The notes under the pieces are model-generated. The model was not told the origin of the DNA. It was given only the letters and a program-made list of their open reading frames with translations, and made no database searches. This document shows positions 48,256-64,000 of a stretch of 64,000 bases of DNA, one piece after another (within the stretch, counting starts at the first letter, position 1; the number at the start of each line of letters is the position of its first letter). Location of the stretch: NCBI GenBank assembly GCA_032358255.1, contig JAULBX010014425.1:35893-99892 (forward strand), read 5' to 3'. The position numbers and the translations under genes are program-made. This DNA is from Heterotrichella gracilis (lineage: Eukaryota; Sar; Xanthophyceae; Tribonematales; Xanthonemataceae).

Positions 48256-48268
48256 CAAATGTAACAGC

Positions 48269-48294
48269 GAGAGCCTTGATTTATCAGGGCTCTC
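48269..48294. terminator. Imperfect hairpin downstream of tRNA-Leu
   Basis: GAGAGCCTTGAT and ATCAGGGCTCTC are complementary with one G-T pair. It lacks a long T run. It sits between tRNA-Leu and the convergent first element gene, so it may stop transcription from both sides or belong to the attachment region. Confidence 0.5.
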
Positions 48295-48332
48295 AACGTT
48301 TAAAGAAAAAGGTTGTGACGGTTTTGTGATTA

Positions 48333-48866: not shown

Positions 48867-48882
48867 GTTACATTCATGTAAG

Positions 48883-49865: not shown

Positions 49866-50476
49866 CTTGTGAATATTATATTACAGAAGTTTTTAAAATA
49901 AACAGTGAAACCAAAGCCGGCCATGTAATCGATATATTTTTTATCTTCTACAGAGTTGGTTTCTACAACAACCATGCAAGTATTCAAAAGGTCAAAAGGT
50001 ATTTGAATTAATATTTCATAGTCCACACCTTCGCAGTCAATGCTTATAAGATCTGCAGTGAAGCATTTACTTTCATACATAAATGTTTCAAACGTTTTAC
50101 ACTTTACTGTTGTTTTTTCAAACTGTGCAGTATTTCCCCAGCGCTTTATTTCTTCAGAGCTCGTTGACGATAATAGGGAATGATCGCCTTTACCTAAATG
50201 CTCGCCTGATTCATAAAAATCAACTGTACCATCCTTTGTACCAATAGCAAAATTATGGCATTTAACTTGTTTGTTATCCTTGTGCCGGGCTTTCAATTCA
50301 GTAAACGACCGTTTGCATGGTTCAACCAAATGACCCTTCCAGCCAGCCTCTAAAAGGCCTAATACATTCGAAAGTGTTTTGCCATCGTTCTCACCTAATG
50401 AAACAAGAGTGCCAATTTTATCTTTAAAGAAGTCAGCAATAATCTTACCTTCTCCATGTTGTGAATAGTCGTTCAT
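49862..50476 (-). CDS. FkbM family methyltransferase
   Basis: SAM-dependent methyltransferase of 204 residues. YSQHGEGKIIADFF at the N-terminus, a SAM motif region LVSLGENDGKTLSN, and VEP, then SIDCEGVDYEIL near residue 148 are FkbM features. FkbM-type enzymes O-methylate sugars or lipids. Its place inside a glycosyltransferase block suggests methylation of the glycan made by the neighbours. It overlaps the GT25 gene by 4 bases. Confidence 0.8.
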   Translation of the reverse strand: MNDYSQHGEGKIIADFFKDKIGTLVSLGENDGKTLSNVLGLLEAGWKGHLVEPCKRSFTELKARHKDNKQVKCHNFAIGTKDGTVDFYESGEHLGKGDHSLLSSTSSEEIKRWGNTAQFEKTTVKCKTFETFMYESKCFTADLISIDCEGVDYEILIQIPFDLLNTCMVVVETNSVEDKKYIDYMAGFGFTVYFKNFCNIIFTR

Positions 50477-50477
50477 A

Positions 50478-51152
50478 TTACATCCCCCTCATAAAAAAAA
50501 TTAGTGAATCCTTTATTTCGTTTTGATAATAGCTGGAATAGATTCCCGGATCATACATTTCCATGTCCAGAAGTCCAATAATTACTGAGGCACATGCTTG
50601 GTCTTGCCTGTGGAACATAAAGCGCGGATCCTGACTTTGATTATCATGTTCTCGTGAACCACTAAAAGCTCCATTCCTAGCAGCTTCAATAAATTCATTA
50701 ATGAACTGTGCAGATCTTTCGTTGTTCATATTTACTCCAAACATAGATGTTGAACAGTCTTCCATTTGTTCAGCTGTATCGCGATCGATACCAAAATATT
50801 CAAGGCACTTATCAGAGCACACTTGTGCGCAGTTGTAACCGCTTTTCCAGAAATAGTGTCCCTCGGAGTTAATTACATCAAATATTTTATTCGGATCATT
50901 TATGGCCCAAACAGAACAGTCCAACCAAAGAATGTGTGTATATCCTAATTTTATGGCCTCTTCGAACGCAGCTGCTTTTATGTTATAAGGACAGCTCTCG
51001 TCATAGTTATTATTTGGAAATTTATCCCAGGTTAATATATCACCATTGAAGCCGTGATGAATTAACGATCTTTTTAATCGCTCAGTGCCTTTTGGATACC
51101 AGCCGGCGCCATTACTTGCATTAATGATGCAATGTTTAATCTGTGATTCCAT
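50478..51152 (-). CDS. Putative nucleotide-sugar glycosyltransferase (GT-A fold)
   Basis: Protein of 224 residues with YTHILWLDCSVW at about 72-82, where D78 stands in the position of the DxD-like metal motif, and later cysteine-rich and His-containing segments such as FMFHRQDQACASV. The pattern resembles galactosyltransferase-like members without a clear family. Assignment rests on fold-like features and on the surrounding glycosyltransferase genes. It overlaps the next gene by 17 bases. Confidence 0.55.
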   Translation of the reverse strand: MESQIKHCIINASNGAGWYPKGTERLKRSLIHHGFNGDILTWDKFPNNNYDESCPYNIKAAAFEEAIKLGYTHILWLDCSVWAINDPNKIFDVINSEGHYFWKSGYNCAQVCSDKCLEYFGIDRDTAEQMEDCSTSMFGVNMNNERSAQFINEFIEAARNGAFSGSREHDNQSQDPRFMFHRQDQACASVIIGLLDMEMYDPGIYSSYYQNEIKDSLIFFMRGM

Positions 51153-51720
51153 ACTTTGTTTTTGGGTCTTGAAATTTATAATTGTAATTGTATAATACTT
51201 TATTGATAAATACTTCTTTTTTCAGAAGTCCGCTTTCTTTCAGACGTTTAGCATAATCGTAGTCCTCCGCATAGCGCATATCTTTAAATCCAATCTTCAA
51301 AGCAATGGATCGTTTAACAGGCGTTTTATGATAGATGGTTCTAACGTAACGGAATCCGTCAGTGTGATCGCCCCAGTCCTTATATACGTTTGAAGCTTTA
51401 GCCATACACATTCTTCCTTCCATATTACATGAAATTAAAAAGCCGATACAATCAGGATCTTGCGCAATGGCTTTTAAAAGTTCATTTACATAATTATGCG
51501 CAGGGAAGTCGTCGCTGTCAAAATAAACAATATAGTCACCATTTGCTCTAAGCAATAGTTTTTGGCGTTTGGCACCTACTGATATCTCTTTATTATCTTC
51601 TTCATAAAGGATTTCAATGTTTTCAGTTTCTTTAACAGCTTGTCTGCAAAATTCATTAAACAATTCTTCAAACATTTGTCTTCTGTCAACTGTTGTGCAA
51701 ATTAAAATGGATAGTTTCAT
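51136..51720 (-). CDS. Glycosyltransferase family 2-like protein
   Basis: Protein of 194 residues, shorter than typical GT2 but with the core: LSILICTTVDRR at the N-terminus, GAKRQKLLLRANGDYIVYFDSDD around residues 49-71 where D68, D70 and D71 supply the metal site, and YAEDYDYAKRL for the acceptor-side acidic motif. Expected to use a nucleotide sugar. ATGA overlap joins it to the next transferase. Confidence 0.78.
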   Translation of the reverse strand: MKLSILICTTVDRRQMFEELFNEFCRQAVKETENIEILYEEDNKEISVGAKRQKLLLRANGDYIVYFDSDDFPAHNYVNELLKAIAQDPDCIGFLISCNMEGRMCMAKASNVYKDWGDHTDGFRYVRTIYHKTPVKRSIALKIGFKDMRYAEDYDYAKRLKESGLLKKEVFINKVLYNYNYKFQDPKTKYGITD

Positions 51721-52403
51721 ATTGTAAAATTTTTTCTAAAGCGTTCTGTGAATAAATCTTGATCATGCTTCCAGTGTTGATCATTCTTTTTATATAAAGC
51801 ATCCGTTTTGCAATTTGAATCCCATCCCGGATGAAAATGCCTGATAATACATTCCCTGATCTGAATTAATTTGCCTCGCTTTATTGCCACGGCGGTGCTT
51901 TCATTATCACAAAAGAAAGATTTATACTCAGGGTAGTAAATGTATTTGTCTCGGTTATAATAATTGAACCCTAGTATTTCCATTGTATTAATGCTGTTTT
52001 GGTGGCCATCATTAAACCATAAGGACGCGTCAAGATCTGCCGGCATAAAAGCCCTTATTTTATCATCATATCCTTTTTCAATTGGAACCTGATCATCGGA
52101 AATATTTAGAAGTATATCCCATTTATCTTCAATACCGTCAACGTCCCGATTAATTGCATAAATTTTACTTTCAGAATTGCCTATGCGAAATTTAACCAAT
52201 CCAGTCATTAAACCTTTTTGATCGAAAAGGTCTATGATCTTTGGAATAACTGTTGATCCATTTCGTATATCATCTTCATCAAGCGTGAAGAGCCAAATCA
52301 TATTGATAGGATCTGCAGCTAATTCCAAATAAGCATTTATTGTTTTTACAAGCTGGTCCTCTCTTTCTCGTGAAGTGACCTTCATTAAAATTGTTTTTTT
52401 CAT
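51717..52403 (-). CDS. Glycosyltransferase-like protein of phage type
   Basis: Protein of 228 residues. It starts TILMKVTSREREDQLVKT, has LFTLDEDDIRN, and a likely metal site in LNISDDQVP near residues 94-102, then ECIIRHFHPGWD near the C-terminus. This is a GT2-like pattern seen in element- or phage-encoded transferases. It closes the block on its upstream side and overlaps its neighbours by 4 bases. Confidence 0.6.
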   Translation of the reverse strand: MKKTILMKVTSREREDQLVKTINAYLELAADPINMIWLFTLDEDDIRNGSTVIPKIIDLFDQKGLMTGLVKFRIGNSESKIYAINRDVDGIEDKWDILLNISDDQVPIEKGYDDKIRAFMPADLDASLWFNDGHQNSINTMEILGFNYYNRDKYIYYPEYKSFFCDNESTAVAIKRGKLIQIRECIIRHFHPGWDSNCKTDALYKKNDQHWKHDQDLFTERFRKNFTI

Positions 52404-52813
52404 TTGTCTTTATTTTTGCTAAGCATTAAAATTTTATGTATTAACTCCTTGCCTTCAGTCCGAAGTTTAGAAATTGTTTTGTTTGCTTCGATGAGTTCCT
52501 TCTTTAGTTTTGAAATTTCTGGATCATGCTTCAACGCAACAACGGCTTTGTGTGCGTTCTTACGTGTTAAAAACTCTACCTCTTCTTTGAGGTCAACGAT
52601 CTCTTTTACAAGCTCAATTGCTTGCGCTCGAACTTCATCATTCTCGAGTCGAAGATCTTCGAATGAAATACGGCTTGTAAGATGCCAGGCTCCGCACTCG
52701 CATTTGTATGTACGAATGGGAATCCTGTTTCTATCAGAATTTAGTTTCAATTTGTTAATGTGAAACAAGGCTATCTGTTCGCTGCCAAAGCTTACTTTTT
52801 TACAATTCGCCAT
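52400..52813 (-). CDS. Zinc-ribbon/coiled-coil element protein
   Basis: Protein of 137 residues starting MANCKKVSFGSEQIALFH. An ATG four codons upstream (52825) is also in frame but overlaps the previous gene; the inner start is favoured because it begins the MANCKK block and leaves a 2-base gap. Cys at position 4 and CECGAWHLTS near residue 40 are a small Cys/His cluster, and residues about 55-130 form a charged coiled coil. Similar short proteins occur in Bacteroidota mobile elements. Function unknown. Confidence 0.65.
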   Translation of the reverse strand: MANCKKVSFGSEQIALFHINKLKLNSDRNRIPIRTYKCECGAWHLTSRISFEDLRLENDEVRAQAIELVKEIVDLKEEVEFLTRKNAHKAVVALKHDPEISKLKKELIEANKTISKLRTEGKELIHKILMLSKNKDK

Positions 52814-52815
52814 GA

Positions 52816-53286
52816 TTAAGGACATCTTGGTTTTGCTTTTTTCATTCGCACGACCGTATATCCATGCCGTTTTAGCATTTTATTATATTTGGGCCACTTA
52901 CAATTACCTTCTTTTGATCTAAGATATTCGGGAATGTTATTTGAAAATTCAACGCAAACAGCAATGTCTTTTTTTAGTTGGCTTATTTCCTTCAATTGTT
53001 CTTCGATCAAATTAAGAAGCTTTTTTACAATCAATACAGTATCGCCTTTAATAGTTACCGTGGCGCTATCATAACCTAAACTTGCATAGCCTTTGTTATT
53101 GTCTGCCTCGACTCTTAAACGGGAATGGTTATAAATTTTTCCAATTATATAAGTAGTGCCGGTTGCGTTCCACCTTCCGTTAAATTCTATTGAATCTATT
53201 TTAAATGAAACGGGGTTACTTGTCGTATCAAATTTTTGCGCGTTTAAACTACCTGCTAATAGTAGTAACATAATTATTTTTTTCAT
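52816..53286 (-). CDS. Small secreted protein of unknown function
   Basis: Protein of 156 residues with a signal peptide (about 1-16, Ala-Gln cleavage), then a beta-rich stretch and a helix-rich part with KKLLNLIEEQLKEISQLKK. The C-terminal quarter is basic. Its start is preceded by an unusually strong Shine-Dalgarno sequence. No family recognised. Confidence 0.6.
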   Translation of the reverse strand: MKKIIMLLLLAGSLNAQKFDTTSNPVSFKIDSIEFNGRWNATGTTYIIGKIYNHSRLRVEADNNKGYASLGYDSATVTIKGDTVLIVKKLLNLIEEQLKEISQLKKDIAVCVEFSNNIPEYLRSKEGNCKWPKYNKMLKRHGYTVVRMKKAKPRCP

Positions 53287-53291
53287 TTTTT

Positions 53292-53462
53292 TTACCTCCT
53301 GTTTGCTTCTAAATGTTGAATATGTTTTTTACAAGCGTTTAGCTCATTTTGCTGGTTCTCAATTATTAAATTCTGATCTTCCATGTCTGGACGGTATAAA
53401 CTATAATATACTCCAGCACCACCGGCAGCTATTCCAATTATTAACCAAAATGCTTCTTCCAT
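53292..53462 (-). CDS. Small membrane protein (56 residues)
   Basis: Short gene starting at 53462 directly after the TAG of its upstream neighbour. The product has one hydrophobic segment (FWLIIGIAAGGAGVYYSLY, about residues 5-23) followed by a charged, helical cytosolic or periplasmic tail rich in Glu, Asn and Gln. It resembles spanin or holin-like small proteins only by shape. Its last codons AGG AGG overlap the ribosome-binding site of the next gene. Confidence 0.55.
   Translation of the reverse strand: MEEAFWLIIGIAAGGAGVYYSLYRPDMEDQNLIIENQQNELNACKKHIQHLEANRR
53294..53300 (-). promoter_or_regulatory. Strong Shine-Dalgarno sequence AGGAGGT
   Basis: AGGAGGT ends 7 bases before the ATG at 53286. 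Most genes in this window have no such sequence. Confidence 0.7.
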
Positions 53463-53870
53463 CTATTTATTTTTTAAGTTTATCCAGTAATATCCAACAG
53501 GTGCAAGGAATTTTAAGCCATTACTGAACTCATGCAGTTGTTCGTGCTTTGTTTCAAAAAATCCATCAAATAAAAAAGTCTTTCTTTGAACTGGTTGCCT
53601 TGTGCCTAATTGTATGGTAACCGTATCGTAATGTCTTTTAGAGCCATCCTTATTAAATAGGCGTTGTTTTATCCATTTACTTGGACTTCTTAGTTCAAAA
53701 GGTTTTTCTTCCGTGCCAGTAACTTCGTATGCTTCTTTTTTAAGAACTAAGAATAAATCTGTTTTTTCCATTTGCTTAATTATTTCTTGTTTATCGCTCT
53801 CTTCCAATCCCCATTGCCAGAAGCAAAAGAGAAGGAAGAGAACTTTGATTAATATTTTTATAAATTTCAA
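53463..53870 (-). CDS. Unknown membrane-anchored element protein
   Basis: Protein of 135 residues with a hydrophobic N-terminus (KILIKVLFLLFCFWQWG, about 4-20) followed by a charged soluble part containing TIQLGTRQPVQRKTFLFDGFF. No family recognised. It lies between the YopX-like gene (4-base overlap) and the 56-residue membrane protein. Confidence 0.55.
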   Translation of the reverse strand: MKFIKILIKVLFLLFCFWQWGLEESDKQEIIKQMEKTDLFLVLKKEAYEVTGTEEKPFELRSPSKWIKQRLFNKDGSKRHYDTVTIQLGTRQPVQRKTFLFDGFFETKHEQLHEFSNGLKFLAPVGYYWINLKNK

Positions 53871-54304
53871 ATCTGGTTTACTAAGTCAGGACTTTCGATC
53901 AGGTTACCGATGCGCTCGTACTTGCGCTTCTTCCAAAGATTTCTTTCCATTGAAAGCAATTCATCAGCTGGTTCTTTCTCATTTATAAACTCGATCATGA
54001 AGCATCCAGCAGAGAATACCACTTTACCAATTCCGATATCAGTTTTAATCACATCGTGCTGATATGTTTTTACGTCATTTGTATCTTTTACTCCAGTGTA
54101 AAGGCAAGGGATAAACCGGCCACCTTTATCAGGAATATGCGTAAGCTTGTCGCACGGATCAACTCCATCGTTCTCCCGGAGATACATTTCACCCGATTGC
54201 GAAAAGAAGATCTCTTCTGTATTTTTTACTTTGTCCTTTGGGTACGTTGGTTTAAACCAACAGTTCTTTTGACTATCCCAGATAATAAATTTTTGTGTGT
54301 TCAT
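53867..54304 (-). CDS. YopX-like phage protein
   Basis: Protein of 145 residues. LYTGVKDTNDVKTYQHDVIKTD followed by VVFSAGCFMIEF is the YopX pattern seen widely in phage and element genes; function is unknown. N-terminal residues FIIWDSQKNCWFKP also suit the family. It supports a phage-like origin for this arm. Confidence 0.75.
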   Translation of the reverse strand: MNTQKFIIWDSQKNCWFKPTYPKDKVKNTEEIFFSQSGEMYLRENDGVDPCDKLTHIPDKGGRFIPCLYTGVKDTNDVKTYQHDVIKTDIGIGKVVFSAGCFMIEFINEKEPADELLSMERNLWKKRKYERIGNLIESPDLVNQI

Positions 54305-54305
54305 A

Positions 54306-54605
54306 TTATTGTTTTTTCAATTGATTTTTATATCGTGTATTTAAACTTCTTAATGAAGCGTTTGCTTTTTTCTCTTTGTTGTATGCGTTGCGATACCATT
54401 CCAAATCTGCATTTGCCTTATTTAAATCGCCCTGCATCTGGACATGGTTTTGCGACATTGCTTCAGTTGCATCAGCGATCCGTAAAAGGCAGCCTAATTG
54501 AATTTGATCCCGATCGACTTTTTGACCTTTTTCAAAATAAGAGCCCCAATCGATGCGTGACTCTTGCCTGTAATGTTTAAATGTTTTTTCTTCTGTGTCT
54601 GCCAT
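54306..54605 (-). CDS. Small coiled-coil protein
   Basis: Protein of 99 residues, highly charged, with a long predicted helix (about 40-95) rich in Asn, Lys and Glu (for example LNKANADLEWYRNAYNKEKK). No motif or family recognised. It lies 2 bases downstream of the dnaB stop region and is probably co-translated. Confidence 0.5.
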   Translation of the reverse strand: MADTEEKTFKHYRQESRIDWGSYFEKGQKVDRDQIQLGCLLRIADATEAMSQNHVQMQGDLNKANADLEWYRNAYNKEKKANASLRSLNTRYKNQLKKQ

Positions 54606-54607
54606 AA

Positions 54608-56041
54608 TTAATCAATTAAAAAGTTTTTGTTTGATTCTAGTTTTGCCATGCTTTCAATAACAGCATCAAGTGTGTTGAAGTCATAATTTTCTATCTTCAT
54701 AAATTCACCATCGAATTTTAAAGGTTGTTCGCAGATCTGCAACTCGCGACCTTTAGCGATATCAAAAATTAAAAGCCCTTTTGTGTTTAAAGTTCTGTTA
54801 GCAAAAGGATACCCTTCCGGAAACAAATCGTAATATTCAGGTCTGAATAAAAATGATACTGTGTCAGCATCCTGTTCTATGGCGCCTGATTCTCTTAAGT
54901 CGCTTAATTGAGGACGGTATGCATCTGGGCCTGACGCTCTGCTTTCCACTTGCCTACTTAATTGTGATAATGCGATAATTGGGATATCCAACTCTTTTGA
55001 AAGTGTTTTTAAATTCCTGCTGATAAATGAAATTTCAGCTTCGCGATTTCCTTTTCCTTCACCAGACATCAATTGTAAATAATCAATAATGATCAACTCG
55101 ATCTTATTTTCATAAAACAATTTTTTTGCTTTTGCGCGAAGGTCCGAGTAAGTTAAGCCAGCAGTATCGTCAATGTAAATTGGCGCTGCCATCAATTTAA
55201 AACAGTTCCCTGTTAATTGTTGCAACTCCTGTAAATTAATTTTCTTTTGGTTAATTCTGGTTGAACTAATGTTTTTACCTTCTTCGCCTTCTGATGCAGC
55301 TAACCTTCCAACTAATTGTCTGGCCGTCATCTCCAAAGAAAATATTGCAATTGGTCTGTTAAACATCATGGCAGCATTTTTGGCAATAGCTAATGCAAAG
55401 GCTGTTTTTCCCATACCCGGACGAGCAGCTATAATGTTTAAAGTTCCTTTTTGCCAGCCCCCCATGTGTTTATCCAAATTTTCAAGTCCAGTTAACAGAC
55501 CGGTGGGCAATCCGTTTTCAATAACATTTTTAATATCTTTTACCATTTCGGAAAAAACATCTCCAACAGTTTTGATATTGTTTGAAGTGAATGAAGTGAT
55601 CTCTTGAATTTTTTTATTGATTTTATCTACCAATTCAAAAGGATCTGCGTTTGGAGTACCAGCCAGATAATTCATTTCGCGGCCTAAAGATTCTATTTCT
55701 CGAAGCAAATAAAATTGAGTTATAATCAATACATGATGTTCGATGTTGGCATCACTGGCAACTCTGTTTGTTAATTGGGAAATATAATACGGCCCACCAA
55801 TATCTTCCAGCCGGCCCATTTTTTTTAATTCTTTGGTTACTGTTAAAATATCTATCGGTTCGCTTCTTTGCCAAATTGCTTTAATTGCCCTGTAAACGAA
55901 TTGATTTTGTTTTAAGTAGAAATACTCATCTTTTAAAATTGGAGCGATCTTTGGCAGGTTCTCTGCGCTTAAAAGCAAAGCTCCAAGCACTACTCCTTCA
56001 ATTTCTTTATCGTGTGGTGGTGTTTTTCCTATTTCGTTCAT
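54608..56041 (-). CDS. dnaB: Replicative DNA helicase, DnaB family
   Basis: Hexameric helicase of 477 residues. The N-terminal domain begins PPHDKEIEGVVLGALLL and contains PIDILTVTKELK; the RecA core has Walker A RPGMGKT at 207-213, LFSLEM-type IFSLEMTARQLVGRL, LIIIDYLQLM (Walker B) and LSQLSRQVESR. The length is full. The host must have its own copy; this one is in an element operon beside a DnaD-like initiator, so it probably serves replication of the element. Confidence 0.93.
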   Translation of the reverse strand: MNEIGKTPPHDKEIEGVVLGALLLSAENLPKIAPILKDEYFYLKQNQFVYRAIKAIWQRSEPIDILTVTKELKKMGRLEDIGGPYYISQLTNRVASDANIEHHVLIITQFYLLREIESLGREMNYLAGTPNADPFELVDKINKKIQEITSFTSNNIKTVGDVFSEMVKDIKNVIENGLPTGLLTGLENLDKHMGGWQKGTLNIIAARPGMGKTAFALAIAKNAAMMFNRPIAIFSLEMTARQLVGRLAASEGEEGKNISSTRINQKKINLQELQQLTGNCFKLMAAPIYIDDTAGLTYSDLRAKAKKLFYENKIELIIIDYLQLMSGEGKGNREAEISFISRNLKTLSKELDIPIIALSQLSRQVESRASGPDAYRPQLSDLRESGAIEQDADTVSFLFRPEYYDLFPEGYPFANRTLNTKGLLIFDIAKGRELQICEQPLKFDGEFMKIENYDFNTLDAVIESMAKLESNKNFLID

Positions 56042-56730
56042 ACTGGTTGGTGTCTTTTTTTAGCAGTTGTTTGTTCAGCTACAGGTTTAAAATTTTTATC
56101 ATTCTTAGCCCAGGTCTCTAACCTTCGGCTTACATCCCATGTTTTTTCTAATTCGCGTCTGAATTTTGTTCCTGAAGTATTTGGTTCGGTCCAGTATTTA
56201 TAAAAATCATTAAGCAGGTTCTTCCCATACTTTTCTAAAAAAGGTTTGAGTGTGTCAGCAAATTTTAATTTGCGCTCTTCAATATTATTTTCTTTTATCT
56301 TATTTTCTTTACTCTTATCTCCTCTTATCTTATTTGTTGAGTTTAGTTGACCGTCTGTTGAACCAGTTTCAACCGATGTTGAATTTTGGTTGGAATTTTC
56401 AAGCTTTTTATCAGCCCTAATTTTGGCAGACTTTTGACCTTTTTCGGAGTTCTTTTTTGATGTGCTTTGAATTTCAAGCATTTGATCATCAAGGAAATCT
56501 ACTTTTATAAATTCCTCATCAAGCTTTAATATTTTATAATTTAAAAGTTCTGAGATCTCGTCATCACCAAAATCAAGTTTTGCATCTTCAAGTGTCATTA
56601 CGCACTCATCATGCCAGTACTTACATATCAAATCCATGAAGGCAACTTTTGCTTCTTTGCTTCTTTTTTGGATCCGGCCAAATTTCCATCCGGCAGGTTC
56701 AAACTTAAAATATGGTAGTTCTTTGCTCAT
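56038..56730 (-). CDS. DnaD-like replication initiation protein
   Basis: Protein of 230 residues. N-terminal half (about 5-90) looks like a winged-helix domain of element replication proteins (ELPYFKFEPAGWKFGRIQ). A polar, low-complexity linker (about 90-155) leads to a C-terminal helix set (YGKNLLNDFYKYWTEPN, TWDVSRRLETWAKND). Both ends are typical of Bacteroidota element proteins that load DnaB. It overlaps dnaB by 4 bases and follows the ThiF gene by the same coupling. Confidence 0.75.
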   Translation of the reverse strand: MSKELPYFKFEPAGWKFGRIQKRSKEAKVAFMDLICKYWHDECVMTLEDAKLDFGDDEISELLNYKILKLDEEFIKVDFLDDQMLEIQSTSKKNSEKGQKSAKIRADKKLENSNQNSTSVETGSTDGQLNSTNKIRGDKSKENKIKENNIEERKLKFADTLKPFLEKYGKNLLNDFYKYWTEPNTSGTKFRRELEKTWDVSRRLETWAKNDKNFKPVAEQTTAKKRHQPV

Positions 56731-57539
56731 AAATAAATTGGTGCAATTTTTAAGGTTTCTAAATTGATGAAGGTGCCATGGTAAGTGATCTTAGTTTCTC
56801 GAAACATTTTCCATAGTGTGTGCATCGCGAATTGTGTCAGTATCGGATTAATAAAAAGATCTTGTTTTTCCAATGCTTCAGCTAAAGAACATGAAGGACC
56901 AGTGTCTTTATCCTTTTGATCTTTAAAGCCCGGGAACTTATCAAATACGTCCGGTAATATATCCAGAGCTTCGCCGTCAACTGCCTGTGGATTATTTGCA
57001 CATGCAGAAGGTTGCGCAATTGATCTTAACGTTCCAATAACGAACTGGCCAGCATTTTGTGTGTTGCCAAGATCCATCCAATAGTAACTTGTTTTAAAAG
57101 GCTCTCCTTCATTGGATTTAATTTGATAAAGACATTTTTGAATTATTTTCCTGGCCTCAACTGTATCAACACATGATATAGAAATATTTGCGCTCCGGTC
57201 TTCGAGCAGGATTTTTTCATTAAATTTAAATGGTACTGCTTTCCATGAAGTTCCAAAGTACCTGTTGTAACGTGTAATCAATACAACGGCTTTGTTTAAT
57301 CCTATATCGACAGGAGAGAATAATTGCCGGCCCATATTTGCTTCAGATACAACATCATCATCAAATAAAGTTACATGAAGTCCCGTGTGGCCTAATGCTT
57401 TTAAAGCTTTATCCATTCGCGCCAGCTGGGTAAGGACCTGACAACCATTTCCTCCTGCTCCTATTACTTGGACTGTAACAGGATGCTGTGGATTGATCAG
57501 GTAAGGTGCTGTGTAATGTATTTTTAATTTATTTTTCAT
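56727..57539 (-). CDS. PRTRC system ThiF-family (E1-like) protein
   Basis: E1/ThiF adenylating protein of 270 residues, fifth gene of the PRTRC cassette. ATP-binding loop GAGGNG at 27-32; D60-D62, N68, R71, Q72 and K83 complete the E1 adenylation signature. D125 in SCVD fits the nucleotide-sugar ribose contact. C217 in GPSCSLAEAL is the candidate catalytic cysteine. In known E1 enzymes these activate the C-terminus of a ubiquitin-like protein as an adenylate. Here the likely partner is protein C (59446-59676) and E2-like protein B (57536-58249). It is coupled by 4-base overlaps on both sides. Confidence 0.9.
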   Translation of the reverse strand: MKNKLKIHYTAPYLINPQHPVTVQVIGAGGNGCQVLTQLARMDKALKALGHTGLHVTLFDDDVVSEANMGRQLFSPVDIGLNKAVVLITRYNRYFGTSWKAVPFKFNEKILLEDRSANISISCVDTVEARKIIQKCLYQIKSNEGEPFKTSYYWMDLGNTQNAGQFVIGTLRSIAQPSACANNPQAVDGEALDILPDVFDKFPGFKDQKDKDTGPSCSLAEALEKQDLFINPILTQFAMHTLWKMFRETKITYHGTFINLETLKIAPIYL

Positions 57540-58249
57540 TTAATAATTCTGTTGATTAATGATTCCAGTTTTTTGATCGGTGAAGCAGCAAGCGCATCTT
57601 CATTAAATTTTCTGTTCACAGCTGCTTTTAACGTCACATTAATATTATAGCCAGCCGCCATATTGTTACCGCCATGTGTGAAGCGAGAATTAAAAAACCT
57701 TTTTTCCCATCTTGCAATCTCTTCCTGCAGGATCCTTTTCTTTTTTGTTTCACCGGCATTACCAAGACACACATCACCAGTATTAGAAGTATTATGAAAT
57801 GGTCCTTTAAATAGTTTGGTTTTTAAATTTGGCTTAGAAGATCCTTTTACCGCAAATACATATAAGCTTTTACCATTTACAGAAAATATTAATCCCGGTA
57901 AGTTGTAGGTTGTATTTTCAAGCTTAAGATCCTTTGCAAAATATAACATCCGCTTTGATGGTGGTAGCCACCATACAAGGTGTATATCAGTAAATGTCTG
58001 TTTGAAGTATAAAACGTTTTCAGGAAACAATCCTTTTATTTCAAGTGGTGTGAATGTTTGATCACCCAATGCCATTGAAAGTTCTGCCAACTGCTCCTTG
58101 TGAAAAGGTTTCCCTTCAGACCAGGTATATCCTTTTTCAGATTTAATAACATTGTGCGTTTCGAGATATTGCTCGCCCTCTCTTTTGTAAATCACCACTA
58201 CTTGGTGAGGTTCAAAGTTCGAGATGGATTCTTCTTTTATTGTATTCAT
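57536..58249 (-). CDS. PRTRC system protein B (E2-like, Prok-E2 family D)
   Basis: Protein of 237 residues matching PRTRC B, which falls in the bacterial E2/UBC-like fold set. Visible: NLPGLIFSVNGKSLYVFAV at about 116-134, a KLFKGPFHNTSNTGDVCLG segment with the candidate active cysteine C161, then WEKRFFNSRFTHGG. PGL, FHN..GDVCLG and F-x-SxFTH are the usual landmarks. If active it would carry a thioester-linked protein C. Its start lies 38 bases inside the end of the F-like gene, so translation is probably coupled. The ThiF gene follows with a 4-base overlap. Confidence 0.88.
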   Translation of the reverse strand: MNTIKEESISNFEPHQVVVIYKREGEQYLETHNVIKSEKGYTWSEGKPFHKEQLAELSMALGDQTFTPLEIKGLFPENVLYFKQTFTDIHLVWWLPPSKRMLYFAKDLKLENTTYNLPGLIFSVNGKSLYVFAVKGSSKPNLKTKLFKGPFHNTSNTGDVCLGNAGETKKKRILQEEIARWEKRFFNSRFTHGGNNMAAGYNINVTLKAAVNRKFNEDALAASPIKKLESLINRIIK

Positions 58250-59411
58250 TTTTTAATTTTTCATCATAGTGTTTGAAATAAATACTCCGACCTATTTTAA
58301 AGAACTTCTGTAGTTTCTTTAACCCTTCCGGAGACGAAGGTTCTTTTGAGTTCTTTTCTTTATAATATCCATGCATTACAGGTTCTAGTGAACCAGTTTC
58401 TTGTTCAATACTGTTGATCCAACTTTCTGTATGATCAAACACGGCATCGTGGAAAGACCATTCAAAAGTCATTGTTTGATCTACACCCACAGGTTCACCA
58501 TCAGAGCATTCAGGATCTATGTATGGAAAACTAAAGTCGTAAATGCAGAATTTATGTTCCAATACTTCACAACCAGCCATTAGCCATCTTTTTATTTCAC
58601 GTTGTTTTGAATTATTTGGACGATAATTTTTAGCTAATTCTTTAACGCTCTCTTGTGAATTGTTAACTAATAACCTTTTACATTCTTGTGCAAACTCATA
58701 GGCTACACCTTTCTTTTCGTATTTTGCCACATCCATATATAAAATAGCATCATCATCGTCATCATTTCCATTTGTATAAGCTTCAATATCGTTGATGACC
58801 ATGTCATTATAATTATTGTATATGAATGAGATACTGAACTCTTTAGCAATACTATAAATCATCATTTGAATAAGATTCCTGAGCTCCGGATTTTTACTTT
58901 TTAAAGTATCTATCCATTCCAAAGGGCAGTAAAAGATATCATCACTTAACTCAGGTAAAGGTTTGTAATAGTTAATCGCCAAGCTTTCGTAGTTGCTATA
59001 TTTGCTTGAACCTGTTATTACGTAATTAAATCCTTTTGGGATAATTTTCTTTACTTCAGCGAAAAGGTATTCTGCAAGTTCTTCAAGAGAAGGAAATCCG
59101 TTCCATTGCTTATCATCTTTAAACTCAGGAACAGTCTTTAGCACCTTGTATAATTGTGGTAACATTATTTTGAGATCTTCACTACTTACAGATATTCGCT
59201 CAGAATTAATTTTAAAAGCGCTTATCGGTTTAATCGGCCAGTTTAAAAAATTGGTTCTATAAACTGGCTCGGTGGCAACGCTAACTCCTCCCCTTCTATT
59301 TCTTCCTGAAATCCTGTGTGCAGGTAATTCTTTTTTGAATTTCTTGCTTTGCGGAATATTTGCGCGAAGGTTCTTTGCTGATCTGTGTTTATTTCTGGAT
59401 TTGTTTTGCAT
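58212..59411 (-). CDS. PRTRC protein F-like
   Basis: Protein of 399 residues between C and B, the place of protein F in known PRTRC cassettes. The N-terminus is strongly basic (to about residue 45, many Lys/Arg) and could bind nucleic acid; the middle holds helix-rich and acidic stretches (GNDDDDDAI near 216) and the C-terminus ends RRIHLEL. I see no catalytic motif. The name is mainly by position and order; sequence similarity was not tested. Confidence 0.65.
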   Translation of the reverse strand: MQNKSRNKHRSAKNLRANIPQSKKFKKELPAHRISGRNRRGGVSVATEPVYRTNFLNWPIKPISAFKINSERISVSSEDLKIMLPQLYKVLKTVPEFKDDKQWNGFPSLEELAEYLFAEVKKIIPKGFNYVITGSSKYSNYESLAINYYKPLPELSDDIFYCPLEWIDTLKSKNPELRNLIQMMIYSIAKEFSISFIYNNYNDMVINDIEAYTNGNDDDDDAILYMDVAKYEKKGVAYEFAQECKRLLVNNSQESVKELAKNYRPNNSKQREIKRWLMAGCEVLEHKFCIYDFSFPYIDPECSDGEPVGVDQTMTFEWSFHDAVFDHTESWINSIEQETGSLEPVMHGYYKEKNSKEPSSPEGLKKLQKFFKIGRSIYFKHYDEKLKNEYNKRRIHLEL

Positions 59412-59445
59412 TTGCTGATGTTTCTAATAACATGTTGCGTTTTCA

Positions 59446-59676
59446 TTACCCTTTATCACCTATTACAGTTGTGAATTTATATACCGCCACTCCGTCTTCC
59501 ATAGTTGGACCATCAATAGAAGCTGTTACTAGCTCAGGATGCTTACGACTATGATGATTAATAACTTCTTGAATTGACATATTAGGATGCGGGTCCGTCA
59601 ATTCAACTTGATCCTTTTTACCTTTTCCTTTTTCAAGGACAAATTTTCGTTTTGCGTTTTTTACTTCGTATGCCAT
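59446..59676 (-). CDS. PRTRC system protein C (ubiquitin-like protein)
   Basis: Small protein of 76 residues. An upstream ATG at 59736 adds 20 residues with no family similarity and would overlap gene E; the start MAYEVKNAKR at 59676 matches PRTRC C. The body includes LTDPHPNMSIQEVINHHSRKHPEL and GPTMEDGVAVYKF, then the end TTVIGDKG. From the literature, this family is the prokaryotic ubiquitin-like (Prok_Ub) member of the cassette. The C-terminal glycine (G76) would be the attachment point, as in ubiquitin-like proteins activated directly without processing. This is inference. Confidence 0.88.
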   Translation of the reverse strand: MAYEVKNAKRKFVLEKGKGKKDQVELTDPHPNMSIQEVINHHSRKHPELVTASIDGPTMEDGVAVYKFTTVIGDKG

Positions 59677-59686
59677 GGTTTCAATT

Positions 59687-60292
59687 TTAAGTGGTTTGTG
59701 TTTCTTCTTTTGGTTTTGGTAAGTTGCTAACTGCATTTGCCCATTTGCGTTCCATAGCTAAAGCGTTGTTTGCTTTGTCCGGGAATATCTCATAAGCTTT
59801 TACATAAGCTTCAACTGCCTCATGATATTTTCTTTCTTGGTGTAATCTTTTACCGTCAGCCATGTGAGCATCGAATTGTTCTTTTTTAGACGGTCCTTCT
59901 TCTTTAACAGCCTCAGTCTTTTCAACAACTTCTTTCTTTGGCTTTTCAACTTTTTTAGGAGCTGGCTTTTTCTTAGTGTCCTTTTTTGATTTTTGCTTTG
60001 CATCTTTCTTTTCAGCATCATCCTTTTCTTCTTGCTCTTCTTCTTCAAGCTCTTCCTTTACTTTGTCAGCATTTGAACTGAATGCCGCTTTAACTTCTAA
60101 AGGCTTTTTAATTTCATTGATGAAGTTCTCATCCATCTCTTCCGGAGAGCCAGACATCTCAATGTTTTTAGTTGCTTCTTTAAAGTTTGGTGTTACGGTT
60201 ACAACCAGATCTTCACCAATTTTTTTTACGTTCATGCGCAGTTCCTGTCTATCATCTAAGGCAGCTGCTAATTGTTTGAAAAAATCACTCAT
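59687..60292 (-). CDS. PRTRC system protein E
   Basis: Protein of 201 residues. The first 75 residues (FFKQLAAALDDRQELRMNVKK, IGEDLVVTVTPNF, then SGSPEEMDENFINEI) match the conserved N-terminus of PRTRC E. Residues about 80-150 are a Lys/Glu-rich low-complexity linker, and about 150-195 form a TPR-like repeat with AVEAYVKAYEIFPDKANNA. It opens the cassette in the direction of transcription, 10 bases before protein C. Role unknown. Confidence 0.82.
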   Translation of the reverse strand: MSDFFKQLAAALDDRQELRMNVKKIGEDLVVTVTPNFKEATKNIEMSGSPEEMDENFINEIKKPLEVKAAFSSNADKVKEELEEEEQEEKDDAEKKDAKQKSKKDTKKKPAPKKVEKPKKEVVEKTEAVKEEGPSKKEQFDAHMADGKRLHQERKYHEAVEAYVKAYEIFPDKANNALAMERKWANAVSNLPKPKEETQTT

Positions 60293-60316
60293 TTTTATTT
60301 GTTTTTGGGGGTTAAT

Positions 60317-60664
60317 TTATTTTTGTGTTACTCTTAAAAAATCATCTGTGGCCGCGATCAATAATACTACTGGTACTTTACCGATTTGTCCACGCGCTTT
60401 CATTGCAGTTTCATAAGCCTGGTCTTCCAGTGACTGAATAACTTTTATTTCTTTATTATTCAGTTCATTCTTTCGTGTGTGCAAGCTGCCGTTCAAATTC
60501 AAAACGTTTTTGAAAACCTTATAATTTTTCCAATATTCGGAGCTACATATTTTACACCTGTGGCGATGCACGCCTTTATGAAATTCATCGATCGGCTTGT
60601 CTGTTTTACAGCAAGTGCAAAACTTCATTTCAAGTTTTACTTCAGTGTTTGTCTCTTCGTTCAT
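60317..60664 (-). CDS. Zinc-ribbon element protein
   Basis: Protein of 115 residues. The inner ATG at 60664 overlaps the previous stop as ATGA and is preferred to the ATG at 60682. C16, C18, C19 and the pair C37/C40 form a zinc-binding module of the C-T-C-C..HRCKIC type, often found at the front of phage HNH or DNA-binding proteins; no HNH motif follows. The remainder is helical and basic. It sits immediately before the PRTRC cassette. Confidence 0.6.
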   Translation of the reverse strand: MNEETNTEVKLEMKFCTCCKTDKPIDEFHKGVHRHRCKICSSEYWKNYKVFKNVLNLNGSLHTRKNELNNKEIKVIQSLEDQAYETAMKARGQIGKVPVVLLIAATDDFLRVTQK

Positions 60665-61071
60665 TTTATTTTTGATAACCAAGGTTTACATAATTCAATA
60701 ACTTTTTTGCACTCTTCAACATCCATCATTCCTATGTGAGTAAATTTTATTGGAATGTTCATGTTAGTGCTTAACCATATATAGGCGAGATCTCTGGACT
60801 GGTTTTTTGTAAAACCTCTTTTAATTTTGTTTTTCCATAACAAATCAAAATATGAATGCGCTTCTTTTTTCCATTGTCGAAGCTCACTATTAGCGAGACG
60901 TCCTAATGCTTTGTTTGTTCCTTTGTGAACACCTACCCAGGCCTCGCACAAACCACATAAGTAAATCATCCCATAGCTTCTTCCATAAACTATTTTGCTA
61001 TCTACATATGCAGTCTTACCAAAACAGTAAGGGCATAACTTTCCTTTTAATATTAGTTCCTTCTGTTTCAA
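60661..61071 (-). CDS. DUF3268-type zinc-finger protein
   Basis: Protein of 136 residues with C13/C16 and C39/C42 zinc ligands, SYGMIYLCG, then LGRLANSELRQWKKEAHSYFD and FTKNQSRDLAYIWLS. These match the phage-borne DUF3268 zinc-finger family. The start is TTG at 61071 overlapping the helicase stop as TTGA. Function unknown, likely in DNA metabolism. Confidence 0.75.
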   Translation of the reverse strand: MKQKELILKGKLCPYCFGKTAYVDSKIVYGRSYGMIYLCGLCEAWVGVHKGTNKALGRLANSELRQWKKEAHSYFDLLWKNKIKRGFTKNQSRDLAYIWLSTNMNIPIKFTHIGMMDVEECKKVIELCKPWLSKIK

Positions 61072-62222
61072 TTTCTAGTGAATGCTACATTCGTTAACTG
61101 CCTGTTATTATTCCAAATGGAATACAATCCTTTTGGGCACTGTGTTATTTTCATAGTCTCGATCTTTCCAAACAAATTGATGTTTCCCCCGAGGTCAACT
61201 ATCCACGCCGTTTCTTTATCCTTGTGTGGTCTCATAGCCCGACCAACGATTTGGTAATATAAAGCCAGGGACATTGTAGACCTTGCAATCAATACCGCTT
61301 CTAATTCAGGATAGTCAAATCCTGTTGTCAACACACCTACATTGATCACACATTTAATTACACCGGCTTTAAATTGTGTAAGGATCCTTTCACGTTCTTT
61401 CTTTTCAGTATCACCAGTTAAAACAATTGATCCCGGTATGCCAGCAGCTACTTCATGCGCTTCCGATATCAGTGAGCAGAAGATCAAAAGGTTTTTACGT
61501 TTGGCCAGTACACGATTTGCATAACCAATTGTGATCCTTGGCATATCAATTTTCCTGTAATAACTTTTGATCGAAGCGTCCGTGAAATCAGTTCCAGAAG
61601 AGTTCATCTGGAGCATGGTCCTATCAACCACATTAAAACTGAAGTATTCTAATTTTGCCAGATGCCCGGCATTGAATAGCACATCATTTTGAATGTAGTA
61701 AAGGACCTTATTAAAAACTCTTGGCCTTGTTCTGTTTAAGAATTTAAGCATCGCGCCATCAAAGCTTGCGCTTAGTCGATAAGGTGTAGCTGTTAAACCT
61801 AATACCTTTGCTTCTGGCACGCTTTTAATGAAGTCTTCATACATTCCACCTTCCGAATTAACCAAGTGGCACTCATCAATTATAATGTGTTTTACATCTC
61901 TAAATAAATGATGCTTCTTTGCTACGCTTCCAATAGTGGCGAATGTAATTTTGTCAATGAACTTTGAGCCTGCAGATGCTGAGTATACCCCCGCCCTAAA
62001 ACCATAAGACATAAACTTTTTTAAATTCTGCTCAAGGATCTCTTTGGAAGGTTGGAACACAATTGTCTTTCCTTCAAGGGACATAGCAATGTTTGCAATG
62101 ACAACACTTTTTCCTGATCCGGTTGGCAGGATTTCAAATGCATTCACCTTCTCATTATTTTTGAAGAAATTGATTGCAGCGTTTATAGCTTCTGTTTGAT
62201 ATGGGCGGGGAGTAAAGCTCAT
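61068..62222 (-). CDS. Superfamily 2 DEAD/DEAH-box helicase
   Basis: Helicase of 384 residues. Walker A PTGSGKS at 33-39, DECH at 116-119, TATPYR motif III, and VGRAMRP motif VI are present. The enzyme has only the two core domains and no nuclease part. Such helicases in phages act in replication or recombination. It lies 1 base after the 203-residue protein and precedes the zinc protein. Confidence 0.88.
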   Translation of the reverse strand: MSFTPRPYQTEAINAAINFFKNNEKVNAFEILPTGSGKSVVIANIAMSLEGKTIVFQPSKEILEQNLKKFMSYGFRAGVYSASAGSKFIDKITFATIGSVAKKHHLFRDVKHIIIDECHLVNSEGGMYEDFIKSVPEAKVLGLTATPYRLSASFDGAMLKFLNRTRPRVFNKVLYYIQNDVLFNAGHLAKLEYFSFNVVDRTMLQMNSSGTDFTDASIKSYYRKIDMPRITIGYANRVLAKRKNLLIFCSLISEAHEVAAGIPGSIVLTGDTEKKERERILTQFKAGVIKCVINVGVLTTGFDYPELEAVLIARSTMSLALYYQIVGRAMRPHKDKETAWIVDLGGNINLFGKIETMKITQCPKGLYSIWNNNRQLTNVAFTRN

Positions 62223-62223
62223 C

Positions 62224-62835
62224 TTAATCTACTTTAGCGGTCTCAAATTCTTCTTCGCTCTTTTCAATTTCACTTGAAATTGTCAGCTGTGCAGGATCTT
62301 TCTTTTCTTCTTGCTCAACAGCTGTGTATTTACCGCCGTGATACAGTTCAACTTCTAAGCGAACTTTATCAGAAGCTTCCTTCAATTCTGCGAACCATGG
62401 GTAAGATGACAATTTATCCATTGGGATCTTTGGAGTTACTAATTCCATGCGGCCACCAGTTGAGGTTAAATACTTGTTACCTTTTAAAATGATGCACTCA
62501 TCATCTTTGCTTCCTTTAATGATAAAGCCGGTTACTGAATAAAGCCCTACAAGCTCATTGTTGTGCATGGCATTGATGTCAACGATCTCAACACCACTGT
62601 GCTTAAATACATCATCAATTACTGCCAGGTGAGCATTTAAAGTTCTAAAGGCGATGTGCATATCCGGATCAATAATTCCAGTGCCTTTTACTTTGTGATT
62701 AAAGCCAGCGCCTGTTCCTGTCTTAACATCGTAGGAATAATTACAGAAATCATCTTTTATCGTACCTTCTACGATTTCAAGTGGCTTTTGAATTTCCTCT
62801 TGGTCATTTTTCTTTTTGCTTGGTTTTTTTGCCAT
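62224..62835 (-). CDS. Unknown conserved element protein, possible DNA-recombination factor
   Basis: Protein of 203 residues with a Lys-rich N-terminus, a beta-rich core (CNYSYDVKTGTGAGFN, then DDECIILKGNKYLTS) and an acidic C-terminus. It resembles no named family to me. Its place between a nuclease and a helicase suggests a role in DNA metabolism, such as single-strand annealing or binding, but that is inference only. Confidence 0.55.
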   Translation of the reverse strand: MAKKPSKKKNDQEEIQKPLEIVEGTIKDDFCNYSYDVKTGTGAGFNHKVKGTGIIDPDMHIAFRTLNAHLAVIDDVFKHSGVEIVDINAMHNNELVGLYSVTGFIIKGSKDDECIILKGNKYLTSTGGRMELVTPKIPMDKLSSYPWFAELKEASDKVRLEVELYHGGKYTAVEQEEKKDPAQLTISSEIEKSEEEFETAKVD

Positions 62836-62844
62836 TTGTTTATT

Positions 62845-63141
62845 TTATTTATTGGTTAATACTTCCTTGATAAGATCAATTGTTTTAGTTTGCATTAATT
62901 CTTTTGGCGTGGTTCTGAAAATTCTCCAGCCTAACATTGCTGCAGCATTATATTTTTCAATGTCACCTAAAAAACCGCTTCCCCTTGTATGCCGACCTCC
63001 TGTCCATACACCACCTTCTACTTCAAGCGCAATCTTTTTATCTGGCCAGGCATAATCAAATCGCCATTTTCGTGTTGGATGGAATTTATGTTCCTTTACT
63101 GGCACTTGTATTTTTAATGATTCGAGAACTTTTTCAAACAT
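62845..63141 (-). CDS. Vsr/DUF559-like endonuclease
   Basis: Protein of 98 residues with a PD-(D/E)XK-like core: KWRFDYAWPDKKIALEVEGG, where D29 and E40-V-E42 are the likely metal site, then WTGGRHTRG. This pattern recurs in phage-encoded small nucleases. The start overlaps the upstream gene by 8 bases. Substrate (resolving junctions, restriction or packaging) is unknown. Confidence 0.78.
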   Translation of the reverse strand: MFEKVLESLKIQVPVKEHKFHPTRKWRFDYAWPDKKIALEVEGGVWTGGRHTRGSGFLGDIEKYNAAAMLGWRIFRTTPKELMQTKTIDLIKEVLTNK

Positions 63142-63466
63142 TTTTTACCTCTTTGCTTTCTTCATTGTATTTTAAATTGAATTGCCATTTATGATTTGGA
63201 GCGCCATGTCTTTCATTGACTTTTTCCTCCAGTTTTATTAGTTTTTTTTCAGATGTTAGATCTGTTATAGTTCTTCTGATGCTTCCAATTAAATAACCAT
63301 ATCCTTGTAGGCTCACCCATTTCTGAACTTCCAATGGAGTGTAAGCAGCGTATTTATTCAATTCAAAGAATTGAAATATTACAACCTTTTGTTTTTCAGC
63401 TTTCTCTGTAAAATCCAAAAGCATTTGCCCTTGCGCGTGTATGGTATTATAGAAGCCTTTACTCAT
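63134..63466 (-). CDS. Winged-helix-like element protein
   Basis: Protein of 110 residues, helical, with YTPLEVQKWVSLQGYGYLIG and SIRRTITDLTSEKKLIK, which look like a winged helix-turn-helix (recognition helix then wing). It is probably a DNA-binding phage protein; regulator versus replication role cannot be told. Confidence 0.55.
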   Translation of the reverse strand: MSKGFYNTIHAQGQMLLDFTEKAEKQKVVIFQFFELNKYAAYTPLEVQKWVSLQGYGYLIGSIRRTITDLTSEKKLIKLEEKVNERHGAPNHKWQFNLKYNEESKEVKNV

Positions 63467-63521
63467 TTAGAACCTCCCATAAACTTTATTTGTTTCAACC
63501 TTTGTTATTGTTGGTGTAGCT

Positions 63522-64000
63522 CTATTTTTCATCTTCAACAATTTTAAGTTTGCCATTTTTTAAAGTGTAAAAAGTATCTTCTTTCACAGTCTTGCCATCA
63601 ACCAAAAATGTTTTAACTGATTTGCGATGCCAGTTATAATTTTTGTCTTGCTTCCATTCCGAAAGAACTATCCAGCAACCCTTCTTGCCTCTCGCCTTTC
63701 CTTCAATCCCTAATGAACTTGCTACTGATTGCTCTCCTTCTACTGTGGCAGCGGAGTAATCTCCCGTGTTAGTGGCAGCGGACTTAGATCCCGTGTTAGT
63801 GGCAGCGGACTTAGATCCCGTGTTAGTGGCAGCGGAGTAATCTCCCGTGTTAGTGGCAGCGGAGTAATCTCCCGTGTTAGTGGCAGCGGAGTAATCTCCC
63901 GTGTTAGTGGCAGCGGAGTAATCTCCCGTGTTAGTGGCAGCGGAGTAATCTCCCGTGTTAGTGGCAGCGGAGTAATCTCCCGTGTTAGTGGCAGCGGAGT
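63522..64000 (-). CDS. Repeat-containing element protein, N-terminal part outside window
   Basis: C-terminal 158 residues of a larger minus-strand protein. The visible N-side is about nine repeats of TNTGDYSAA (two copies read TNTGSKSAA), followed by VEGEQSVASSLGIEGKARGKKGCWIVL and an ending KNGKLKIVEDEK. I recall similar repeat-plus-GCWIVL proteins in phages and mobile elements, possibly forming beta-helix or coiled surfaces; function unknown. The stop is TAG at 63522-63524. Frame is open to the window edge. Confidence 0.7.
   Translation of the reverse strand, partial: SAATNTGDYSAATNTGDYSAATNTGDYSAATNTGDYSAATNTGDYSAATNTGDYSAATNTGSKSAATNTGSKSAATNTGDYSAATVEGEQSVASSLGIEGKARGKKGCWIVLSEWKQDKNYNWHRKSVKTFLVDGKTVKEDTFYTLKNGKLKIVEDEK
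63747..64000 (-). repeat. 27-bp tandem repeat, about 9.4 copies, running off the window
   Basis: Units begin at 63747 and recur every 27 bases. Units 2 and 3 (63774 and 63801) differ from the others by a few bases (SK instead of DY); the remaining visible copies appear identical. It codes for a 9-residue repeat in the partial gene. Confidence 0.92.

Follow-up and report, generated by a model that had tools for sequence, protein, structure and literature searches.

The 64,000-nucleotide stretch of DNA analysed here (the window; positions 35,893 to 99,892 of contig JAULBX010014425.1, assembly GCA_032358255.1) carries on its minus strand, at 56727–60292, five open reading frames (ORFs) in the order E, C, F-like, B and ThiF. 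Adjacent frames overlap or lie 10–34 bases apart, which bears out the tight operon described in an earlier sequence-only reading of this DNA. The five genes are flanked on one side by a RadD-like helicase and on the other by a primosomal-type protein and DnaB, and the minus-strand run to which they belong extends from the gene at 63134–63466 to the gene at 53463, with overlaps or gaps of at most 34 bases and a gap of 176 bases thereafter. By gene content and profile matches, the cassette is a reduced, phage-borne variant of the PRTRC type that lacks the JAB peptidase (protein A). The profile scores rule out chance, as does the recurrence of this gene order in dozens of other loci; we set the cassette apart from full PRTRC because its F-like protein and B fall below the cut-offs of the corresponding PRTRC profiles and because no JAB was found. 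The sequence-only reading had named it a PRTRC cassette without this reservation, and the name remains apt for its E1, E2 and ubiquitin-like components.

ThiF scored 261.1 bits with TIGR03736 (cut-off 144.75) and 50 bits with the Pfam ThiF profile. Its residues include GAGGNG at 27–32, D60, D62, N68, R71, Q72, K83, D125 and C217; the ATP-site residues, N31 excepted, and C217 are conserved in six aligned sequences. Searched against the PDB, ThiF profile A5 retrieved eukaryotic E1 chains at E values of about 1e-8, the best being NEDD8, UBA6 and UBA1 E1 enzymes; E. coli ThiF was a weaker match, and Cap2 was matched too. On these grounds the protein is a member of the E1/ThiF superfamily and a predicted adenylating enzyme. 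B reached 120.1 bits with Pfam Prok-E2_D (cut-off 25) and 125.5 bits with TIGR03737, narrowly under the cut-off of 131.45. Its C161 and N153 are invariant in 50 sequences and stand eight residues apart, which is the N-to-C spacing in the HPN motif of eukaryotic E2 enzymes. A search with a structure model of B returned E2 or ubiquitin E2 variant (UEV) folds in all of the first 17 rows, with Z scores that are weak but consistent, and the model points to an E2-like fold. C scored 69.7 bits with Pfam Prok_Ub (cut-off 25) and 54.9 bits with TIGR03738 (cut-off 45.95), and terminates in GDKG, with the glycine as a free last residue. Its start is probably at 59676, as judged by relatives, the longest ORF extending to 59736. 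The Pfam profile suggests a ubiquitin-like modifier; a PDB sequence search with C returned no match. The sequence-only reading had described an E1-like ThiF with an intact GAGGNG, a D-N-R-Q-K signature and C217, an E2-like B with C161 and a Prok_Ub-type C ending in glycine, and all of this holds, the three proteins each having matched PRTRC or Prok_Ub/Prok-E2 profiles.

The two remaining proteins are less well covered by existing profiles. E scored 47 bits with Pfam PRTRC_E (cut-off 26) and 37.7 bits with TIGR03741, 0.25 bits short of the cut-off of 37.95, and its tetratricopeptide repeat (TPR) matches fall under cut-off. The F-like protein matched nothing at E 0.1 in Pfam and NCBIfam, the PRTRC_F profile TIGR03742 included, and one protein search gave no homologue at E ≤ 1e-3; the F proteins of three Bacteroidota plasmid cassettes were likewise unmatched in NCBIfam. 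An iterated hidden Markov model (HMM), for which three F proteins of the Bacteroidota type served as seeds (two plasmid-borne, one from an unverified phage-collection record), takes in the window protein together with the F of 63 other loci, and because of this match and the gene order we assign the protein as F, in keeping with the sequence-only reading. Its AlphaFold2 model (predicted local distance difference test score, pLDDT, 83.4) is mostly helical and gave no clear match against the PDB. An HMM for A found nothing in the 506 ORFs of both halves of the prophage described below and of its nearest relative, and B and ThiF overlap by 4 bases. General Pfam, NCBIfam and PHROG scans recognised neither D (ParM-like) nor ParB among the window proteins; no dedicated profile search was made for either.

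The element that carries the cassette is apparently a complete-looking temperate tailed phage of about 50.2 kb, integrated at a tRNA-Leu gene (Table 1); the left part of the window, read from its proteins, appears to be Bacteroidota chromosome. The window ends where its contig ends, inside a repeat coding for SAATNTGDY-type units, and the terminal bases of another contig of the same assembly (C68) code for the first part of a repeat protein of the same kind. A 27-base tandem repeat (SAATNTGDY/SAATNTGSK units), at window 63745–64000 and at the end of C68, breaks the assembly within the prophage. From the repeat end, C68 carries genes co-directional with the window operon and then a CI-like repressor on the opposite strand (phrog_4, 1e-17). 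Its phage genes include a terminase (phrog_2, 7.3e-17), a portal (phrog_7376, 4.4e-20) and a tape measure (phrog_20660, 6.8e-13), besides a weak virion-protein match (phrog_7231, 0.0016), and at its far end an integrase (phrog_1, 7.6e-21) adjoins a 14-base copy of the tRNA-Leu end (attR). Provided that the contigs are joined as proposed, attR is in direct orientation with window 48243–48256. The 27-base tRNA-Leu end occurs once in the assembly, and attR has 14 bases in common with it. As in 21 of 2,000 trials a shuffled tRNA had at least one 14-mer in common with the C68 stretch, the 14-bp repeat alone is modest evidence, and it is because of the adjacent integrase and the matching coding repeat, not of this repeat by itself, that we take C68 as the other half.

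The nearest phage (locus L013, record G002; 51.4 kb) has structural proteins 31–64% identical to their C68 counterparts; used as queries, its portal and tail protein found C68 homologues at 52% and 33–37% identity, respectively. Its early module is that of the window (helicase-x-E-C-F-B-ThiF-primosomal-DnaB), and it also encodes terminase, portal and tape measure. The start of the same record holds a different repeat, GVIPDSGVIPDS. The coding repeat, the att pair and this synteny together make a strong case for the link between C68 and the window, with no sequence reading through the junction. We rejected the view of the element as a mere tRNA-adjacent island, C68 having supplied the remaining phage half; the tRNA-Leu-adjacent element of the sequence-only reading is indeed inserted at tRNA-Leu, between 14-bp attL and attR copies, but is better described as a complete-looking temperate phage.

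Table 1. Features of the prophage and its replication operon in the window
Feature	Positions	Strand	Basis or remark
tRNA-Leu (taa), integration site	48172..48256	+	ends in attL
attL, final 14 bases of tRNA-Leu	48243..48256	+	copy at C68:339195-339208 beside integrase
Window half of prophage, ~15.7 kb of ~50.2 kb	48257..64000	.	other half = C68:339195-373712
YopX-family phage protein	53867..54304	-	PF09643 1e-7, phrog_98
DnaB-type replicative helicase	54608..56041	-	TIGR00665 419 bits, phrog_19 5.8e-108
Primosomal-type protein	56038..56730	-	phrog_19415 (unknown) 7.9e-28, phrog_9327 (primosomal) 1.5e-4
ThiF, E1-like adenylating enzyme (predicted), C217	56727..57539	-	TIGR03736, Pfam ThiF
B, E2-like, C161 and N153	57536..58249	-	Prok-E2_D, TIGR03737
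F-like, 399 amino acids, model mostly helical	58212..59411	-	own HMM family F
C, ubiquitin-like, ending in GDKG, 76 amino acids from the start common to relatives	59446..59676	-	Prok_Ub, TIGR03738
E, PRTRC E-like, 201 amino acids, weak TPR-like C-terminal part	59687..60292	-	Pfam PRTRC_E, TIGR03741
Endonuclease VII / HNH-like protein, weak	60317..60682	-	phrog_1035 6.1e-7
DUF3268 protein with zinc finger	60661..61071	-	PF11672 2.9e-36, phrog_1934
RadD-like helicase	61068..62222	-	NF053632 1.5e-69 (under its cut-off), phrog_16 2.4e-79
Conserved phage protein preceding the helicase, function unknown	62224..62835	-	cluster 16, 9 loci including the window
phrog_503 family protein	62845..63141	-	PHROG match
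C-terminal part of repeat protein; contig stops within the repeat	63522..64000	-	N-terminal part at end of contig C68

Elsewhere in the prophage, the tRNA end (window 49266–52403) holds a series of glycosyltransferase-like genes together with an FkbM-type methyltransferase, and a tRNA-Met gene lies within the structural half (L253:3642-3716; C68:360641-360715). The assembly as a whole (68.5 Mb, 903 contigs) seems, on our reading, to hold more than one organism. It also holds a second cassette, of proteobacterial appearance (L004, G000:C760:153000-162999), with JAB between B and ThiF and an F matching Pfam alpha-hel2.

Relatives of the cassette are widespread among uncultivated phages. Six ThiF queries found a ThiF relative encoded in 163 viral contigs, of which the best 80 were analysed; a second scan, with a JAB-type ThiF as lead query, covered the best 80 of 265 hits, of which not all were confirmed as PRTRC. 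The terminase phrog_2, the one terminase family searched, was present in 25 of the 80 first-scan records (21/50 and 4/30), many of which are fragments. A ThiF relative is also held by 376 plasmid records, and in the phages collection the full cassette was confirmed in one record, Burkholderia phage BgVeeders33. Because some contigs had entered more than once, loci with ThiF at least 85% identical were dropped; this left a non-redundant set of 95 of 156 loci, among them the window and a small number of records from plasmids and phages (L001-L003 and L009-L012 were excluded as fragments, repeats or broken). These 95 loci are of two types. The F-type is without JAB save for L089, which the tree places with the F-type although its F went unrecognised; the Fp-type has JAB in all non-redundant loci but L074, L163 and L164. 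Directly 3′ of ThiF, the largest gene cluster has members in 8 of 54 F-type loci, among them the window protein and its L013 homologue, both of which match primosomal PHROGs. The position among replication genes, noted in the sequence-only reading, is confirmed in the window and is seen again in other phages, where a sliding-clamp gene often stands immediately ahead of E. Two further observations concern individual loci. In L163, a JAB-less viral contig of the Fp-type, a ParB-like protein (by eye; L163:25-1431) directly precedes C, nearer the classical ParB-PRTRC layout; and a few kilobases past the cassette, L068 (13538-15613) and nine other loci encode a 691-amino-acid phage protein (cluster 15) in which amidoligase, DAM-like and GNAT-like phage domains are fused.

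The gene family found next to E encodes a DnaN-like clamp (PF00712, PF02767 and PF02768; phrog_947). Among the 45 F-type loci with an E match and enough upstream sequence, the clamp lies directly before E in 16, with gaps ranging from -14 to 108 bases; in 4 it has another position in the locus, and in 25 it was unseen. The other 9 of the 54 were left out: the window itself, loci lacking an E match, and loci with no clamp and less than 1.3 kb of upstream sequence. L048, which belongs to these nine, lacks an E match but has a clamp ahead of C. Among the genes directly upstream of E in 47 F-type loci, the next commonest cluster has two members. Over whole records, a clamp was present in 22 of 50 (nearly all F-type) versus 2 of 39 (mostly JAB type; L089 and L074). 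It was likewise more frequent in F-type loci (20/45) than in helicase-selected loci without PRTRC (12/75; Fisher p = 0.0012, uncorrected for kinship). The E-adjacent clamps are diverged and spread over several groups of the clamp tree, whereas 11 of the 12 clamps of PRTRC-less phages fall with or near host DnaN; this weakly suggests several separate origins of the E-adjacent clamps.

The end of C varies with the presence of JAB. In the 147 loci with a readable C (88 non-redundant), C ends exactly at the glycine in all 64 JAB-less loci (55/55 non-redundant), whereas in the 83 JAB-bearing loci it has a tail of more than 7 residues in 73, of 1–7 in 6 and none in 4 (27, 3 and 3 of the non-redundant loci, respectively). 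L089, JAB-bearing on a side of the tree that is otherwise JAB-less (L004 apart), has a tail of 48 residues, and L163 and L164, JAB-less though Fp-type, have a C without a tail. These data fit a role for JAB as the maturation peptidase of C. The match is weakened by the ten JAB-bearing loci with tails of 0–7 residues, and on the tree there were two independent pairs and no significance (under a looser tail rule, with L164 mis-scored). For ubiquitin-like proteins of phage tails, cutting at the glycine by JAB has been proposed by Iyer et al. (PMC1779556, in the part available); here the idea is tied to presence and absence within one family, over few independent events. The tails of the JAB-bearing loci (for example, L077, L085 and L089) are mostly 48–100 residues long and of several unrelated-looking kinds, with some endings in common.

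Starting from what was read by sequence or model, namely the prophage, the operon, the families, the catalytic positions, the fold of B, the glycine end of C, and the recurrent clamp and primosome or helicase neighbours, we propose, at a probability of roughly one half, that the cassette is a phage ubiquitin-like conjugation system within the lytic DNA-replication operon that tags a protein of the replication fork. Position, operon, active-site residues and glycine end support a cascade that would be co-made with the lytic replication genes; the direction of the operon runs on from the genes beside the CI-like repressor on C68. That conjugation serves replication, together with the chemistry, the roles of E and F, the target and the irreversibility of the tag, is what we infer from this arrangement. 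ThiF would adenylate the C-terminal glycine of C and may hold C as a thioester on C217; C would be handed on to C161 of B, and B, probably with E and/or F as adaptors, would join it to one of the proteins present at the fork of phage replication. Being made already ending in glycine, C would need no maturation step, and because no JAB is encoded the tag would be permanent unless a host enzyme undid it. Since the clamp is the commonest direct neighbour of E in relatives, it, or what loads on it, ranks first among candidate targets; in this prophage, which has no clamp of its own, the target would be the host clamp or another replisome protein. The modification of PCNA by ubiquitin and SUMO in eukaryotes serves as the model for this analogy. 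Tentatively, the proposal might extend to a large group of tailed phages, which would tag the clamp (their own or else that of the host) or another fork protein, and in this way switch polymerases or lock host replication; the tag would be permanent in JAB-less members, and in JAB-bearing ones the peptidase would first trim the tail of C. If true, this would be a bacterial-virus counterpart of PCNA modification.

Several observations are mixed or weigh against a role at the clamp. Within the helicase-selected loci, clamps occur in 2 of 5 with PRTRC versus 12 of 75 without (p = 0.21), the five being contigs that the set contained anyway. Mapped on the ThiF tree, the clamp before E requires 6 changes over 46 rows, compared with a shuffled mean of 13.2, and is therefore clustered by kinship. 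No column, lysine included, is invariant among 21 aligned clamps, and an HMM search found no clamp in this prophage itself. The missing clamp and the place of the cassette in an early operon would also suit a take-over of the host, in which host proteins (polymerase, nucleases or host replication) are tagged early in infection and the operon provides timing only. We regard this as doubtful, as the neighbours point to phage replication more than to host proteins at large: a clamp immediately precedes E in 16 of 45 F-type loci, and a primosomal-type gene follows downstream.

A role in defence or anti-defence, in which a cassette akin to the E1/E2 parts of the cyclic oligonucleotide-based antiphage signalling system (CBASS) or of Bil shields the lysogen or disarms host defences, has precedent: bacterial E1/E2/JAB systems with tested roles are anti-phage in the available portions of PMC10097602 and PMC11354881 (Bil), and Iyer et al. 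compare the mobility of such cassettes to that of restriction and toxin-antitoxin systems in the accessible text of PMC1779556. The sequence-only reading had offered defence as one function, and we saw nothing that points to it: neither an effector nor a nucleotidyltransferase was recognised next to the cassette (no padloc search was made). We consider it unlikely, as the genes form part of the replication operon and do not stand apart as a unit of their own. Maintenance, also offered there, or partition is a common annotation of PRTRC on plasmids; the 376 plasmid records, a plasmid map that draws PRTRC as a partition system (in the part of PMC7466150 available) and the ParB-like gene before C in L163 speak for it. 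Here, integrase and att sites mark the carrier as an integrated phage, and general scans, which used no dedicated ParB/ParM profiles, picked out no partition gene next to the cassette, so that we hold such a role to be quite improbable. Least probable to us, by a little, is sulfur or small-molecule chemistry, with C charged by ThiF as a thiocarboxylate, like ThiS or MoaD, for the modification of nucleotides or cofactors. The ThiF family membership and the glycosyltransferases and FkbM-type methyltransferase of the phage would accord with it. Against it, ThiF is partnered by an E2-like protein in which C161 and N153 are invariant, the PDB matches favour eukaryotic E1 enzymes over E. coli ThiF, and no rhodanese or sulfurtransferase gene was recognised among the scanned proteins.

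PRTRC among the replication genes of many uncultivated phages, clamp-adjacent in about one third of non-redundant F-type loci, suggests both a process and a candidate target. That a prophage keeps such a system amid its DNA-copying genes raises a hypothesis open to test, namely that certain bacterial viruses govern their replication by tagging proteins. Tagging of fork proteins by a phage for its own replication would reverse the direction of those bacterial E1/E2 systems whose tested roles, as far as the sources seen extend, are against phages. The JAB-less form, whose C is encoded with glycine as its last residue, offers a compact set for reconstitution (E1, E2, modifier and two helpers).

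Judged by gene content, PRTRC (NCBIfam TIGR03735-TIGR03742) would correspond to row 6d, the operon type listed fourth by Iyer et al. 2006 (PMC1779556, as far as its text was available). The window cassette shares with PRTRC the E1-like ThiF, the E2-like B, a C with conserved glycine, a largely helical F, and E, in the order E-C-F-B-(A)-ThiF. Unlike PRTRC, it has no JAB between B and ThiF, although such operons always contain a JAB protein according to the accessible part of PMC1779556; its F is missed by the PRTRC_F profile, its C stops at the glycine, D and ParB were unseen in the general scans (no dedicated profiles having been used), and its carrier is a temperate phage in which it lies within replication genes. 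In the open-licence literature, as far as its texts were available, PRTRC has no tested function and is encountered mainly on plasmids or elements; none of the titles and abstract openings there links PRTRC to sliding clamps or to the replication of phages, most subscription papers lying outside this scope.

Burkholderia phage BgVeeders33 (OK665841.1) likewise has E, C, F, B and ThiF on a phage genome that also encodes capsid, portal and terminase, but differs in having A (TIGR03735, 224 bits), a C with a 62-residue tail, an F that matches TIGR03742, and DnaB on the other strand. Bacteroidota plasmids (Parabacteroides, Phocaeicola and Tunicatimonas) carry E-C-F-B-ThiF without A and with C ending in KG, as in the window, but phage replication genes are not annotated beside the cassette in the L005 and L006 stretches, L007 being unannotated. 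The Tunicatimonas plasmid has a second ubiquitin-like system (L006:15059-17259; multiubiquitin protein, ThiF and DUF6527) about 7 kb from PRTRC. With the ubiquitin and SUMO modification of eukaryotic PCNA the likeness would be clamp tagging, a hypothetical one to which the gene neighbourhood in relatives points. CBASS Cap2/Cap3 and Bil, as described in the available parts of PMC10097602 and PMC11354881, share E1/E2 chemistry and a conjugated protein with a C-terminal glycine (or alanine); they differ in serving defence, in including a JAB protein and, in CBASS, in conjugating the cyclase, whereas the cassette described here pairs a stand-alone ubiquitin-like protein with a JAB-less set of genes in a phage replication operon.

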